A stretch of 35,400 nucleotides of DNA. Source: Endomicrobium sp. (GTDB lineage Bacteria > Elusimicrobiota > Endomicrobiia > Endomicrobiales > Endomicrobiaceae). The DNA lies in the NCBI GenBank assembly GCA_031264325.1, contig JAISEE010000029.1, positions 1 through 35,400 of the forward strand, read 5' to 3'. The stretch's first letter is position 1, and the number at the start of each line of letters is the position of its first letter. The position numbers and the translations under genes are program-made. The notes under the pieces are model-generated. The model saw only the letters and a program-made list of their open reading frames with translations, searched no databases and was not told the origin of the DNA. Positions 18,899-32,433 of the stretch are shown here, one piece after another.

Positions 18899-20277
18899 TT
18901 AATCTTTTTTTTATCCTATGTGTTGAGTAAATGTGTTGAGTAAAAAAATTATTTAACGGTTGTTATTTTAATTTTTTCAAAATCTTTTATAACCAAAAAT
19001 TTTAGATTAGGCGAATTATATACTTATTGACAAAGAAGATTTTTGTAACTTGACACATGAGTAAGTTCCCAAAAAAATCTACCCTGACTGCGTGATATCG
19101 TGATATATGTAAAATTAAGAAAACTTGCAACATTGTTTTTCTCAACCCAAAACATACTTAATTACTAAGACCTATCTTTTCTTATTGTAAGTTTATGTTA
19201 AGATTTGTGTCATAGAATTTATATAGTTAAAGCTTTTTTTTGGAGAATATGCCTCTATTTTACTCTCTATGTTCGAGCTAAAAACTGTCAATCTTTTTTT
19301 GGCACAATAAGTATATCAAGCTGTCATTTAATTTTATACTTTTAGACATTTTATGTCTTTTGCATTTTGAAAGAATTAAAAATTTTTTTATGCGGCCTTA
19401 TCATGTTACTCCATTAGCTCGATTTTGTCCCATGTTCATAAAACAATACAGTGTGAGAAAATATTTCCAGAAAGTTTATACTGCATAATAAGTACGATAT
19501 TGTTTTTAGTGTGCCGTAAGTTTCATATGCTATTGTAACATTTTTAAGTTATTTTTCAGATTTAAGAATAATATTTCAAATTTTATAAAATTTGGGATGG
19601 TGACTAAGTGTAAAAAAATGAACTTTCAGAATGTTTAGCCACCACATTATCTTTAAGTCAATACTTTAATACTAAATATTATAACATATTACAGCGAGAG
19701 GGATGTTTATATGCATTTATGGCATTAATTATATTTATTTAAGCTTTTTTTCTATAAAATAACACAAGTGGATACAAGGGTGTGAGGCCAGCTTTGTCTA
19801 TCCTTAATAGTTGAAGAATTTGTACATATGGTTTATATGGGTATCAAGCTGTGTTCAGAATTTTTTGCGAGCAGTATAGCAATTATAATATGTAATAATT
19901 GTAATATTTTTAGCTCTTTCCTTGTCTTTACGATCAATGAATTTTTATGATTCTTTCTGGGACCTGATATTAGAAATGTCGTTTAATCTTATTTTTATTT
20001 TGTGCTTTTGTCTTCTTCATTAAATAAAATATTTTATGACTATATATCTCGCACTATCTTCTGCAAATTTTATACATATTCTTTGAATCTATATATGCTT
20101 AGTAGTTATTTACAAAAGAGCTTTATCCTTAAAACTGTGGGTGTATAAAACTCAGATATAAATGTTAAATAGTCGTTAGTTATCATTAGCTACAACCATT
20201 GTTGTGTTGTGTCTTATTTCTAACTATGTGTTACTATAATTTTTCACAGTTCAATCTTTCTATTTATATCTTTTATA
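18899..20277. other. Gene-poor region between nadA and the MATE gene
   Basis: No intact gene found on either strand. The stretch is AT-rich with frequent stops in all frames. Short protein-like pieces occur on the minus strand around 19850-20060, for example KFIDRKDKERAKNI and, in the same frame beyond one stop, RLNDISNIRSQKES, which suggests a decayed gene; I cannot name it. CGTGATAT is duplicated in tandem at 19091-19106. No tRNA, CRISPR or IS end is recognisable. Confidence 0.55.
18918..18943. repeat. Perfect tandem 13-bp repeat upstream of nadA
   Basis: ATGTGTTGAGTAA occurs twice back to back (18918-18930 and 18931-18943), 20 to 45 bp before the nadA start codon. It could be a pair of regulator sites in the leader or promoter region, or simply a slippage duplication like others in this window. 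Confidence 0.85.
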
Positions 20278-21860: not shown

Positions 21861-22004
21861 ATAAAAACAGATTTGAAAATATATAAAATTAATCTTAATT
21901 AGAGAGATAAATTTGATGATTTCTATTATTTATGATTATATTAAAATGTAGATGCCCTAGTACTAGTTTAAAATATAACAAATTTTGGTCATTATGGTTC
22001 TTCG

Positions 22005-22184
22005 ATGAAAACGGGTATTTCAATCTTTAAATATATCTCTGATTATAGCTTTGCTCCGCATGGTAAGTTTAACTATAATTATGTTTTTCAAAAATTAAAA
22101 TGTAAATTTTTGGAGTCTAATGTTAAGCTTTTTGTTTATAAAGTATCTAAATGGTGGTATCAAATAAAGACCTGGAATCTATAA
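22005..22184 (+). pseudogene. Unrecognised 59-codon open frame, probable fragment
   Basis: ATG22005 opens a 59-residue frame rich in aromatic and lysine residues (KFNYNYVFQKLKCKF, SKWWYQIKTWNL). The frame is open a little farther upstream with protein-like NITNFGHYGSS before the ATG. The alternating pattern could be part of a beta-barrel protein, but nothing is recognisable and no Shine-Dalgarno precedes it. I regard it as a remnant of a longer gene rather than a functional one. Confidence 0.3.
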
Positions 22185-22404
22185 TTTTGCAAGCTATGGG
22201 TTGTGTGTGGTCCTAGAAAATTATAAATAAGATAAATATATCCTATTAGATTTGTAGTTATGAGGATTATTGATTTGGGTGAATATTTTACAACTTTAGG
22301 AATACAGAAATAATTGTTTCAAATATTTCGTCATTTCTTTTGTAAATCTATTCTTGTTTCGTTCGTTTCTGTCTTTTTTGGCAGTTTGGAATTATTATAA
22401 TATT

Positions 22405-22433
22405 CAAGTCTGACAAGTCTGATTCAAGTCTGA
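22405..22433. repeat. Three copies of CAAGTCTGA
   Basis: CAAGTCTGA occurs at 22405-22413, 22414-22422 and 22425-22433. The first two are directly adjacent and the third is two bases farther. They resemble iterated binding sites or slippage products; no gene lies closer than 22765. Confidence 0.8.
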
Positions 22434-22712
22434 ATTTGTGTAGAATCTTTAATAATAATTGTCAACATACACCCCAGCAACATACTAGCATATATTTTTA
22501 ACCATGGATGCAAAGGCATAACTATAGCACAAATTGTATGAGATAAGTTCCATTTTTGCTTTCCTTCAGTTTTTTCTTGTTATATAAAGCTTTAACTTTT
22601 TATATTTAATTTATAATATCTGTTTGATTATATAAATTTTTGTATTATTTTATTTATGATGGATGTATGATGTTATGGGGATGTAAAAGAATTTGTATAA
22701 TTTTGTATCAAT

Positions 22713-26508: not shown

Positions 26509-26527
26509 ATAAAATAGCTGTTTATTT
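26507..26527. terminator. Possible bidirectional terminator between holA and rpsT
   Basis: AAATAAA (26507-26513) pairs with TTTATTT (26521-26527) around a 7-nt loop, followed by more T's on the plus strand and A's/T's on the minus side. It contains only A/T pairs, so it would be a weak hairpin, but its position between two convergent genes, overlapping both ends, fits a shared terminator. Confidence 0.35.
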
Positions 26528-26803
26528 TTTTAGTTTAGCAACAAGTTTTGATAGTCTTGCTTTTTGACTTGAAGCGACTTTGGAGTGGACAATGTTTTTT
26601 TTTGCAGCCTTATCCAATTCTGAAAAAGCTATTGTCAACTGTTCTATGGCAACTTTAACATCATTTTTCTTTATAGCATCTTCAACTTTTTTTATTGTGT
26701 TTTTTATTTTGCTTTTAATGCTTGAGTTTCTTTCAGTTTTTTTTTCTGCTTTTCTTGCTTCCTTAAGAGCAGATGTATGCCTGCCTGTTTTAAGTTTTGT
26801 CAT
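26522..26803 (-). CDS. rpsT: 30S ribosomal protein S20
   Basis: A 93-residue strongly basic protein with the S20 pattern: an N-terminal lysine-rich helix (TGRHTSALKEARKAEKKTER), IKSKIKNTIKKVEDAI and the C-terminal AAKKNIVHSKVASSQKARLSK, matching the conserved GxiHkNtAarkKSrLa region in altered form. S20 binds the 5' domain of 16S rRNA. GAGGGAT precedes the ATG and a near-consensus promoter lies about 50 bp upstream on the same strand. Confidence 0.93.
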   Translation of the reverse strand: MTKLKTGRHTSALKEARKAEKKTERNSSIKSKIKNTIKKVEDAIKKNDVKVAIEQLTIAFSELDKAAKKNIVHSKVASSQKARLSKLVAKLKK

Positions 26804-26849
26804 TTTTTATAATATCCCTCTCATCCGAAACTTATATAACTTAGTGTCA

Positions 26850-26878
26850 ATTATACATAAAATTGGCAAATTGATCAA
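26850..26878 (-). promoter_or_regulatory. Sigma-70 promoter of rpsT
   Basis: On the minus strand TTGATC (26878-26873) is followed after exactly 17 bp by a perfect TATAAT (26855-26850). Transcription would start near 26843, 40 bp before the rpsT start codon. Confidence 0.75.
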
Positions 26879-27399
26879 GAATAGATAAATATTAAGGAAG
26901 GTTTACTAGGTTACTGTTAAAACACTGTTAATCGTATATTACTTGTTAGAAGACAAGCGTCATGTAAGTGTTATATAGTGCTCTTTGTTGGAGAAAACTT
27001 AAATCAGCAAAACATTGATACATCAATTAAAGTTTATGGGATAGATGAAAAAAATCCTGCAAGTTTTTTATCTGTTTAAGTACTAAAATATTAAATGACT
27101 TTAAACTCTACTCAGTCTTACTGATTGATGAATTATAAGATTTATTTTATTTGTCACTGTGATATTAAATCAATGTCAAAATTAGTATATTCTAAATCTT
27201 TAAATGTTTTAAAAGTGTTGTATGTCCAAATTATATTATCAAGATTAATATTTTAAAACATATACTTCTTGCGATGTGGTATTTTATATGTATGCATGTA
27301 TATTATATCAATGTAATGAGCATAAAATAAGGGCTTATTTTTTCATAGTTTTAGTTTTAAACTGTATTTAGCAATAATATTAAACTAAGTGTACCACAA

Positions 27400-27423
27400 A
27401 CACTTACAATTAATTGTAAGTGT
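27400..27423. repeat. Perfect 24-bp palindrome
   Basis: The half-site ACACTTACAATT (27400-27411) is followed with no spacer by its exact reverse complement (27412-27423). It could extrude as a cruciform, be an operator for a dimeric protein or be a remnant of a terminator. No gene is adjacent. Confidence 0.85.
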
Positions 27424-29406
27424 GCGTACAAATGAACTGTTTTGTGTTTTACGTTAGATTTAGAACACGTTGCCCGCAAAGTTGAGAGTATGTGCATAAT
27501 AAGTGTGTAGTTTATAGTTTATGCGTTTAAATAAAAAGTACATTTAGAAGTGTTGCCTTCTTAAATCAATCAAATGGTGCCATAACTTTTGTTTGCGAAT
27601 TGGACTGTTACGTGTATGTATTTTACTCCACATCAAAATATAGTTAAGGGTAGATTTATGTTTTCAAGGGTTGGGGCGCTTATTTAAAGCAAATTTATTT
27701 TTCTGTGTTTTCTTTTGTTTATATATTTACACTAATTTTAGAAACGGATTTTATAACTTTCTCGGAGTCTGTAAATGAATTTTGTGTTATTAATAAAAAG
27801 AAGTACTTGATATATATGAGTTTAAAATTTTGATAATCTCAATTATTTAAGAAAGATTTTTTTGACCGTTTTTAAAAGATATGTTATCAGTATATGTCTA
27901 CCTTGAATTTTGAATTATTTTTTGTGTAACTTTTGTACAAAATTGCTTTTAGAGAGCAAGGCAGAGTTGTTTTGTTAGTCAATTATAGGTATTTAAGATT
28001 TGTTTTTTTACTGTACTTTGATAGCGTTGAGAAACATTGAATTTGTCTTAATTTTTAGGAAAACCAATTATTAAATTAATTTTGTGGGATACTGTTCTTC
28101 TAAAATCCTTGCAATAAAAATAAAAAAGTAAACGTTATTTAGTATTATTCATAACTATTTTTATTTAAGAGTATGCAAATATCATATTTATTTGCAACGA
28201 TGAAAAAAGTTTTATTAATCATAATTATTTGCCGTATAATATACGAAACAATGTTTATTGTAAAAATAACCTGCCTATAGAAATTTGCTTACTATCGTAT
28301 TGTTATTGCCATACGGTTTATATGTGTTATATATGACAAACAGTTAAGGAATCTAATTTTTCTTTTTTTTAAAGCGACATAATTTCGAAGCGATGTTAAT
28401 AAAGTCGTCTAATTTGAGTAGAGAGATAATTAATTTTTATACCCCACATTAAAAAAGCTTTACAATTTCATTAATCAAAATTTGTTTGGTTGTTAATTAT
28501 CAAAGGCAAATATCTTTAGCAAAATGTAAATATAATGGTTGATGATTTGAGAATTAAGCGTCTTTTGGTTCTTTGTGATTTTTCCGAAAACATAAGTCTG
28601 TTTGATGTCGTTATATATTAATGGTATCATATAAAATTTATAATAATTCTTTTCTATAAAAAAAGAGCCATTGTTTCATCTGTATCCTGAAGTCGTTGAA
28701 TATATATAATTAATATGTAAAGAAGTAGGCACTTTTACGATTTTTTCTATGTGACAAAACTGTATAAAGAACAGATTAATATATAAAGTTCGTATATGAC
28801 ACATATTATATTGATTGTTTGAGTTTTATTGATATTGAGTGGAAATATTTTATTTAATAATATTTTTTATAAAAACTGAAATAAAAAAAACAATTAAAGT
28901 TGTTGTAATATTCAAAGTCGCTTTTAAATATTTTAAACAACTATGACTTTTGATTTGCATTTTGAAATAAAATTTCGAAGTGTAAAATTTGTTCTTAAGT
29001 CTCATAAAGAAAGACAGTCAGTTAAATATAGTCACATATACAGCGTATCTTTTATTTGAAAATAAAGAGCAAAAAGTTTTGGATATTTATTAATAATGTT
29101 TTGGTAGATGTTAAAACGAATCACAAATACAAAGTATTATTTATTTTCACATTGTATATTTGCGTTTTTTGTCAATTCAAGTATTTTTTATGCTTTTTTA
29201 ATAATTTATTGGTGAATTTCAGTATATAATTTTTAGAGTGGAATTGTCTATTATCTTCTATAAAAATTTTATTGAAAAAACTGTGAAAGTAAAAAAGAAG
29301 GTGCAAGTTATCATATGCTACACATTGCGCTAATTAATATTAACGATTTAAGTTTTGCTGTGCTTTTCCTGTACTTGAAAGCATGATAGAGATGTTAAAG
29401 ACTTAA

Positions 29407-29735
29407 GGACTTATAATTATTTTTTATCCTTTAAACTCTACGGTAACAATTCAAAATAAATGCATCAAAAATGAAGAGTTATTTAGAAACTTATTAGTAC
29501 TTGGGCTTGATGAGATAAATATAGAGATAGAAAGTATTGAAAGTTTCAGTTTGTTAAAACATATTTTTGATAAATTTATAATAACGTCTAAAGTAAATTC
29601 AATAGTTGAATTTACTTTAATTAGTGAACATCGATCTATGAAGCAATAAAACTTTTGGGTTATGAAAAAGACAGAAATGTCATAGAACAGAAAGTTAGTG
29701 TGGATAATGTTATAAACATTATAATGATTTATTGA
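29407..29735 (+). pseudogene. Frameshifted remnant of an unidentified gene
   Basis: A frame open from 29407 to 29649 contains NEELFRNLLVLGLDEINIEI and KHIFDKFIITSKVNSIVEFT; it has no usable start codon. Near 29630 good protein texture passes to another frame (SIYEAIKLLGYEKDRNVIEQ, then KVSVDNVINIIMIY) that ends at 29735. One frameshift therefore joins two parts of what was one protein. The opposite-strand frame here is less protein-like. I do not recognise the family. Confidence 0.45.
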
Positions 29736-30136
29736 ACTATAATTATGCAAATTATGCACATACATAATATTTCGTTAACAATTTTAGCAGATGAAGTATG
29801 TAAGTTTATAAACTATAGAAAATGTAGTGATAAGTGCAAGTGCCACACACTACAAACATATTTTGAATTATATTAAATGGCGAAAGATATAGGTAGTTTT
29901 AACAGAACAAGTACAAAAGTACTAGATATTTAGCAGGAAGCTTATAGATATAAAAATATATATTATAAAACATTTTCAATAATCATTTGAAATGTTTTAA
30001 ATGCAAATGGTTTGAATGAAATAAAAGTTTTATGTGTTTTATTGATAACTTTTTAATTATATAGTAGATAATATAGCAAGGTAGAGATAATAATTCTTTA
30101 AAAGAAATTTTAAGATTATCTTAATAAGCCAAATAG

Positions 30137-30259
30137 TTGTGGAATTATCAACAAAAGGTAGTTTGTCAGATTTTAAAAACACAGATTGCATTATTTGTTA
30201 ATTTAATTGTTGTGTTGGAAGTGTCTGTTGAAGAATTTTTTAAAAAAGAGTGTTTGTGA
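30137..30259 (+). pseudogene. Short remnant resembling the end of an XRE-type regulator
   Basis: An open frame of 40 codons without a start ends VVLEVSVEEFFKKECL. The pattern (aliphatic-L-x-V-S-V-E-E-F-F) resembles the last helices of an XRE-type helix-turn-helix domain, where L-x-V-S-x-D/E-E-L/F-F is common. The recognition-helix region upstream is degraded or missing. The resemblance is by eye only. Confidence 0.25.
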
Positions 30260-31932
30260 ATATAAAATTTATATAATAGCGACTCTTTTTAAAAATTTTA
30301 TCTGAACTTAAGCTGTATTATTAATCTGTACTTGATGATTTTAATAAAAAATATCATTTAGCAAAATATAGTTGACAATGCTAATCCAAGAGAAGAATTT
30401 TAGATCTACAAAACAACAAACAAGAAAGTATCTTGGGGAGTTGCATATGCGTTTGAATTATTTAGAAGATGAGCGGATGTTAAATTTATTGTATTCTTCA
30501 GCCATTCATTGCGAAGTCTGAGTCTACCTAAAATGTCTCTAAATAAGTAATTTAATATTTTTAAATGTTGTTTGTTTGACATAATGCAAGATAAGCGGTT
30601 TTTGTGGTGCATTGTCTGTAAATTTTATACAAGGCATGGTGGTGGTGGATAACCCATACACGATTTTGCGTTTTATAGACTGTACTTTTATCATAAGTAT
30701 TATAGCTTTGTAATCTTATTTTATTACACATCTTACACACCTTCCAAATATGGCTTGTTGTTCTGAAAAAGAAAGGTTAGTTAATTTCTACAAAATTACT
30801 TTCTCTTTTATATTTTTCATGTTTTCAAATTTATTTGTCAATTTTTTCATATACATTGTAAGATGAAACATAAAACTGTAATATTAATCATTTTTTCATA
30901 AAATAATAGTTTTTGAATAATTTTTTTGAAAGGGTAAGAATTCATTATCTGTAGGGTTACAGTAAAAAATATAGTTGTAAAATGGGGTTGTCGTAGGCAT
31001 AGAACAATGCACTTTATAAGTGCAATTAATATAGAAATAAAAATTATGTGAAGCCATACAACATACTTAAAATTTTTTTGTATTGTTAATGTTTGTGACA
31101 GTTATTGTCATTGATCTCGTAGTTGGGATTCTGTCAAATTACGATAGAGCATATTTTTGCTATTTCTTGAGTTGTGTTTTATATTTATCTATGGTTTTGG
31201 ATTTTGCCTAAGCTTAATTATAATACCTGATGGCATAGAGACAAGGCTGAGTCCCAAAGAAACTATTGATTTAGAATTGAAATAAAACGATTGTAATTCT
31301 GTTTGCAAAACTCATTGTTACATGGATTTGGAGGAGCGTATTTGTTTTTTAAGCTTTAAAAACTTGTTACTATTAAAATGCTTTAGCCATTTGCAGTTTG
31401 TGGTTATAAATCTGTTTGCTATATATTTTTGTATTGTTCTATAAACTATAACTACAAAAGTTACAAAAAGTTCTAGGTTCTAGAGTATAACTTTTGAGAG
31501 TAATTTCAAATTGTTATAGGAATCCAGAATATCAGAATAACTATAAAAGATACTATAAGCCAGAAGCCAGGAGTTATATCTATGATTATATGATTATTTG
31601 GAATGCTGTATAAATTCTTACGATTTATTTTTATTAGAACAAATTTTTGGTTTAATATTTTTAACTAGCTTAATTTTATTAAAACTATTTTCAGCTGATG
31701 ATAACTTGGAAATTTTTATTATTTTTTATATATTCTCTTGCACTATATCAATTCTATGTAACAAAAAAATGTTTTCATTGAATTTTTGTTTATAATATAA
31801 AATTCGAAAAATTTGAAACTTTTTAATTTAAATAAAAATAAATGAAACACCATATTATATTAAATTTTGATATTTGATATGATAACCTTAAGTTTATACA
31901 AAAAAATTGTGGTGTTTGTATTTACATTATAA

Positions 31933-32433
31933 ATGAATAACGTAATATATTTAGGATTGGGCTCAAATATTGGCAATAGGATTGAAAATATAATTTTTGC
32001 TTTGTCTGTTTTGCAAAGTAGTAGTTTTGTTAACATAAAAAAAATTTCATCTTTTTACGAAACGCATCCAATAGGCCCAAAACAAAGAAAATTTTATAAT
32101 ATTGTAGCCAAAGTAAACACGTCTTTAAATCCACACGATTTGCTTTCTATTATAAAACAAACCGAAGAGCTTATGGGACGAAAAAAAAATTTACACTGGG
32201 GGCCGCGTATAATAGATATAGATATTTTGTTTTTTAACCGTGTTGTTATTGCTGAAAAAAAATTGATAGTTCCTCATAAAGAAATACAAAATAGACTTTT
32301 TGTGCTGTCTCCACTTAATGAAATTTCTAAAAGTTTTATATGTCCGATTATAAATAAAAAAATAGGCACTATTTTGAGTGAAAAATTGTTGACACTAAGT
32401 TGTCAAAAGGTTAAAATTTTATATGTTAAATAA
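31933..32433 (+). CDS. folK: 2-amino-4-hydroxy-6-hydroxymethyldihydropteridine pyrophosphokinase
   Basis: A 166-residue HPPK that transfers pyrophosphate from ATP to the pterin in folate synthesis. It has YLGLGSNIGNRIENI, SSFYETHPIGPKQRKFYN, the signature WGPRIIDIDILFF and VPHKEIQNRLFVLSPLNEI. Length is typical of a stand-alone FolK. No Shine-Dalgarno is evident before ATG31933. Upstream is an 8-bp inverted repeat AAACACCA/TGGTGTTT (31845-31852, 31910-31917) and a TTTGATA tandem duplication (31866-31879). It heads a cluster with panB, panC and nadB. Confidence 0.95.
   Translation: MNNVIYLGLGSNIGNRIENIIFALSVLQSSSFVNIKKISSFYETHPIGPKQRKFYNIVAKVNTSLNPHDLLSIIKQTEELMGRKKNLHWGPRIIDIDILFFNRVVIAEKKLIVPHKEIQNRLFVLSPLNEISKSFICPIINKKIGTILSEKLLTLSCQKVKILYVK

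Follow-up and report, generated by a model that had tools for sequence, protein, structure and literature searches.

Genome erosion in symbiont lineages is well known, and the loss of accessory genes by decay as a genome shrinks is an ordinary event of a known kind. For the group considered here, erosion has been published in Endomicrobium and Endomicrobiellum (Mies et al. 2024, PMC11257099), Endomicrobiellum being, in the part of that account available to us, the name for the flagellate endosymbionts characterised so far, and the Trichonympha symbiont Rs-D17 is described as having pseudogenes (as cited in the part of PMC8809381 that we draw on). The locus presented here is like those genomes in its genus-level group, in its erosion and in the loss of envelope functions. 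It is unlike the accounts of them in that the accessible portions of PMC11257099 and PMC8809381 treat losses in terms of which pathways are present or absent, or of how many pseudogenes there are, and describe neither the locus, nor the giant gene, nor the series of remnants reported below. Elusimicrobiota are also named among the phyla rich in proteins of more than 5,000 residues (Amaral and Devos 2024, PMC11573180, in excerpt), although the giant family of this locus, its zincin-like modules and its loss are not described in the sections of that paper at hand.

The window, by which we mean the whole stretch of 35,400 nucleotides that was analysed, is one entire contig of an 802-kb draft genome (G000) of 34 contigs and about 75% completeness. 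A sequence-only reading had held that no intact gene lies between rpsT and folK, and the open-frame list agrees; the right limit that it gave, 31932, also stands, but the gap starts at 26804, 77 bases further left than that reading had it. The G+C content of the gap is 24.7%, against 30.6% in positions 1-26803. Its longest open frame has 104 residues, a length matched or exceeded in 8 of 200 dinucleotide shuffles, and frames of at least 50 residues number eight, where the 200 dinucleotide shuffles give 4.05 on average (range 0-9); in five equally long pieces from other parts of the window the longest frames have 328-685 residues. The 104-residue frame (29451-29765, minus strand) is antisense to the giant gene remnant and is most likely a chance frame. 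The case for decay from the gap sequence alone is thin, and comparison with relatives is the proof: the broken protein-like pieces that had been noticed are barely above chance as open frames, yet real coding traces are present, and five of seven genes of a relative could be aligned with them.

That relative, a close one used as the reference, is Candidatus Endomicrobiellum devescovinae (G041, whose folK contig, C9, matches JAIRYK010000011.1). Its contig C12 carries rpsT (minus strand), genes for glycosyltransferases of types GT4 (plus), GT9 (minus) and GT2 (minus), a Wzx-like flippase (minus) and rlmI (plus), and ends 219 bases after rlmI. Contig C9 starts inside a giant gene (plus strand, at least 2,456 codons), which is followed by a SulP gene (minus) and folK (plus). 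The window and the contiguous locus of G012, our only grounds for joining C12 to C9, suggest that the two contigs are neighbours; in G012, rpsT, rlmI, SulP and folK follow one another on a single contig. An Endomicrobium sp. (G022, folK contig matching JAISDY010000065.1) has rpsT, GT4, GT9 and a methyltransferase gene on one contig, and on another the giant gene, SulP with its frame split near the start, a nucleotidyltransferase/HEPN-like pair and folK. The death of several accessory genes, as the sequence-only reading had proposed, is thus borne out by intact orthologues standing at the same place, in G041 and in part in G022 and G012.

The intact GT4 gene of G041 (L135:1969-3102), also intact at the same place in G022, has a Pfam Glycos_transf_1 match and the GT2 gene a Glycos_transf_2 match; the Wzx-like gene falls just below the Polysacc_synt cut-off (28.0 against 28.2 bits). 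SulP is intact beside folK in both G041 and G012, and the intact orthologue L030:15025-16734 has the Sulfate_transp and STAS domains of the SulP anion transporters, of which the window keeps only a broken copy; the intact protein scores below the curated NCBIfam cut-offs of sulP, DauA and BicA.

Other genes are seen in the same neighbourhood in some relatives. The pair inserted between SulP and folK in G022 (L031:6358-7070, minus strand) consists of an MNT-like nucleotidyltransferase and a substrate-binding/HEPN-like protein, which we take to be a typical toxin-antitoxin arrangement. In G005 a ClpX-like ATPase with a hydrophobic N-terminus (L029:133-1431, minus strand), below the NCBIfam ClpX cut-off, lies beside SulP. 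Of the other genes tried as former occupants of the gap, TypA and the ClpX-like gene had scores within those of six shuffles, and of the two small proteins of the G022 pair one scored 7 above six shuffles and the other just below.

The block genes of G041 were compared with the whole gap on both strands by means of our own protein-to-DNA aligner, which has a frame-change penalty, with 120 dinucleotide shuffles as the null; a second set of scores, for GT4, GT9, GT2 and Wzx, used 100 shuffles and is the one given for those four genes here:

26522-26803, minus strand: rpsT, intact left flank, an open frame of 93 residues, 83.9% identical to rpsT of G041
26910-27105, plus strand: GT4-type glycosyltransferase remnant, residues 18-81 of 362 (134 against a null maximum of 58, 0 of 100 shuffles)
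27939-28436, minus strand: probable but weak GT9 (heptosyltransferase-like) gene remnant, correct in strand and location (84 against 80, 0 of 100)
28474-28708, minus strand: GT2 glycosyltransferase remnant, residues 211-286 of 344 (122 against 72, 0 of 100)
28755-29093, minus strand: Wzx-like polysaccharide flippase remnant, residues 36-154 of 444 (178 against 77, 0 of 100)
29242-30441, plus strand: remnant of the giant orphan protein, its C-terminal 400 or so residues, reaching the last residues of the protein
30461-31643, minus strand: SulP-family anion transporter remnant in two blocks, 30461-31169 and 31213-31643 (scores 231 and 111)
31933-32433, plus strand: folK, intact right flank, an open frame of 166 residues, 89.0% identical to folK of G041

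In this frameshift-tolerant search, five of the seven block genes score well beyond every one of the 120 shuffles, with strands and order as in G041, GT9 is weak and rlmI is absent. The whole-gap scores against their null maxima were 127 against 62 for GT4, 67 against 62 for GT9, 133 against 80 for GT2, 158 against 76 for Wzx, 338 against 60 for the giant C-terminus (stiffer penalty), and 231 and 111 against 69 for SulP. The whole-gap GT2 alignment ran into the Wzx remnant, and the listed value comes from rescoring GT2 within 27106-28754; this remnant may extend down to 28281. Identical residues amount to 37 of 60 aligned in GT4 and 53 of 109 in Wzx. Under looser settings the giant remnant scores 412, with 181 of 356 residues identical, 5 stops and 20 frame changes (no shuffles), and SulP, aligned over residues 7-566, has 7 stops, 17 frame changes and identity at 182 of 368 residues. 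The stretch at 27939-28436 is probably what is left of GT9, going by alignment, although the match is marginal, since the G022 protein with a stiffer penalty scored 58 against a null maximum of 59 (1 of 100 shuffles). For rlmI there is no trace in the gap by three alignment tests (57 against 62, 120 shuffles).

All six recognised remnants keep the strand and the order of G041, and the SulP remnant begins about 20 bases past the giant remnant on the opposite strand, the same tail-to-tail junction as in G041. The pieces are therefore not mostly on one strand, as had been thought, GT4 and the giant gene being on the plus strand and GT9, GT2, Wzx and SulP on the minus strand. We consider it very nearly certain that the gap holds the eroded remains of the arrangement rpsT, GT4, GT9, GT2, Wzx-like flippase, rlmI, giant gene, SulP, folK, the remnants of five of the seven genes being collinear with the intact block of the relative and carrying stops, frame changes and deletions. 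Against erosion of this block count the marginal GT9, the rlmI without a trace, the stretches without a recognised remnant (27106-27938, 29094-29241 and 31644-31932, about 1.3 kb) and the inferred contig join in G041.

Other searches of the gap brought little. There was no match in a phage nucleotide search, and a DNA search of the organism's own genome with the gap gave, besides itself, short AT-rich matches only. A screen of 26889-29264 against 436 protein pieces, the G041 cluster not among them, reached at best 88 against a null maximum of 86, which we took as nothing, and other parts of giant proteins gave no signal above shuffles in the same interval save one G022 piece (46 against 45). 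Elsewhere in the genome of the window there is no further match to the giant or SulP proteins, and rlmI and Wzx have no match in it at all, although copies of lost genes could be missed because this draft genome is only about 75% complete.

The sequence-only reading had allowed that part of the gap might be a structured non-coding element, an alternative for which we find no support and which we hold to be very improbable. The stretches without an assigned remnant would leave room for a functional RNA or similar element, and the largest of them contains a perfect 24-base palindrome (27400-27423), which may be chance in AT-rich DNA. However, even at E up to 1 Rfam matches nothing in 26804-31932, and ARAGORN finds no tRNA there (at the gathering score, the only Rfam match in the window is a tRNA at 313-383), and almost the whole interval has been lost in the related genome G014. 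Nor is the gap conserved non-coding DNA, because genes occupy the interval in relatives.

Erosion of the block is also seen in the substitution pattern, for which we counted mismatches with G041 at codon positions 1, 2 and 3. These are 31.5, 29.2 and 31.8% in the giant remnant, 34.1, 26.0 and 35.1% and 43.1, 27.7 and 38.5% in the two SulP halves, 33.7, 26.0 and 32.7% in Wzx, 45.7, 40.9 and 54.3% in GT2 and 27.6, 22.4 and 41.4% in GT4 (58 codons), as against 5-9, 4-11 and 14-20% in five flanking genes (folK, panB, panC, holA and rpsT). Positions 1 and 2 thus differ by 22-46% in the remnants and by 4-11% in the flanks. The third-position ratio runs from 0.82 to 2.00 for the flanks and from 0.84 to 3.58 where intact copies are compared, and is 0.52-0.63 for all but one of the six remnant comparisons, but it is an imperfect separator, as holA in the flanks (0.82) and the GT4 remnant (0.83, 58 codons) are not set apart. 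Change is near-even over the codon positions of the remnants, as in neutral DNA, and the flanks are conserved. Between G022 and G041 the intact copies of the giant gene and of SulP have mismatches at only 1-5% of first and second codon positions, so that selection appears to act on these genes wherever they persist.

These figures bear on two further alternatives, both of which we regard as exceedingly improbable. As one contig of a draft assembly, the window might hold genes that are really intact and look broken through sequencing or assembly errors; however, remnant residues are 38-62% identical to G041 against 82-91% in the five flanking genes, and large parts of each gene are gone. The same region is broken and deleted in G014, and error does not fit because the recognised breaks lie in this gap and two others, the neighbouring genes are open, and substitutions, not indels alone, are in excess. 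That the cell still produces the fragments as short functional proteins, for instance a split SulP or a free giant C-terminal domain, might be read into the few open frames of 30-65 residues, but it is at odds with the near-even change over codon positions and with the number of stops and frame changes.

The two other gaps in the window with gene remnants lie upstream. At 21979-22564 (minus strand) is a lactate/malate dehydrogenase-like remnant (196 against a null maximum of 45), between what we take to be a MatE-type transporter and an outer-membrane-like protein, with an intact counterpart at the same place in G012 (L030:8501-9448, Pfam Ldh_1_N and Ldh_1_C). A cytidylate-kinase-like remnant (19734-20033, minus strand; 94 against 51) lies between nadA and the MatE-type transporter, and has its intact counterpart in G012 at L030:6517-7119.

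In a tree built from FolK, PanB and PanC, the nearest sampled genome to that of the window is G014 (support for G000 with G014 is 0.856, for G041 with G052 0.818 and for all four 0.982, followed by G005 with G012). The interval from rpsT to folK measures at least 15.8 kb in G041 (6,376 bases of C12 after rpsT and 9,444 of C9, if the contigs are neighbours), 5.1 kb in the window and 319 bp in G014. G014 retains a GT4 stub (103 against a null maximum of 46), and the four further genes that were tested have left no trace there. In G052 the neighbours of rpsT are different genes, and of SulP only the first 67 codons can be recognised in the 853 bases available upstream of its folK. On a separate branch, G050 carries rlmI and SulP, both in broken form. 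The loss is thus a repeated one. We infer that the block genes would no longer have been needed in a symbiont of termite-gut flagellates and that purifying selection on them would have ended, after which point changes and small indels would have broken them and deletions would have removed at least 10.7 kb, a process that may be nearly completed in the sister genome G014.

The one fresh element here is the giant family, which is an orphan family. Matches were found in 14 of the 39 genomes searched and none in the other 25; nine genomes have an open frame of at least 900 codons (G004, G009, G015, G018, G021, G022, G040, G041 and G045), and five have broken pieces only (G000, G005, G017, G019 and G050). 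The open frames reach 8,358 codons, some of them truncated where a contig stops. Of 12 genomes of at least 1.2 Mb, 7 have intact frames, against 2 of the 27 smaller genomes (Fisher p 0.0014); among genomes at least 75% complete the counts are 7 of 12 against 0 of 18 (p 0.0004). This association is a hint and not a test, because genome sizes were rounded and vary with completeness, and because the genomes share ancestry. In a scan with one short motif, 12 of 13 named giant loci belong to Endomicrobium or Endomicrobiellum, and the other is on a contig that was assigned, perhaps wrongly, to a Lachnospiraceae bin. The only Pfam match above cut-off in the family is a Listeria-Bacteroides repeat, carried by a single protein; no match exceeds an NCBIfam cut-off, and there is no PDB sequence match below E 0.1. 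We found no description of it in the partly accessible literature on giant or huge proteins or on Endomicrobi- metalloproteases, which does not prove its absence from print.

The giant proteins have hydrophobic segments (by simple hydropathy, the starts being judged by eye), and HExxH occurs 21 times in 34,727 residues of 11 giant frames, against a mean of 0.3 and a maximum of 3 after shuffling. The loci L098, L099, L100 and L111 have frames of thousands of codons, most with repeated HExxH of two classes, HELxH...LEEF and HELGH...HExFAD. Twelve module sequences were selected because they carry HExxH. The best matches to the model of a module around one class (pLDDT 83.9) are weak and mostly zincins, headed in VIA by a predicted zincin-like metalloprotease (Z 5.4, rmsd 3.8, 98 aligned); the best Foldseek E is 0.074. 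The HExxH modules may be zincin-like and are putative peptidases. The remnant in the window is of the C-terminal part only and is without these modules. The last 600 residues were modelled with a mean pLDDT of 66.6, and residues 184-337 of that model resemble TIM-barrel enzymes (in VIA, GH84 O-GlcNAcase with Z 11.2, rmsd 3.2 and 9% identity over 150 aligned residues; in Foldseek, E 0.027 at best); we do not call the giant protein a glycosidase, because the match covers part of the barrel only. By inference, the giant proteins may act at the symbiont surface. It is possible, if rather doubtful, that these almost genus-restricted proteins are envelope-anchored, with zincin-like modules, and were tools of the symbiosis in its early form, when reduction had gone less far, which larger genomes have retained and shrinking genomes have repeatedly lost.

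The locus provides a gene-by-gene record of decay, with the block intact, half-eroded and nearly deleted in three close relatives and with flanking genes that calibrate the clock. Such a series allows the speed and the deletion steps of the loss of a locus in a symbiont genome to be measured, and the loss of the giant family may track genome reduction.
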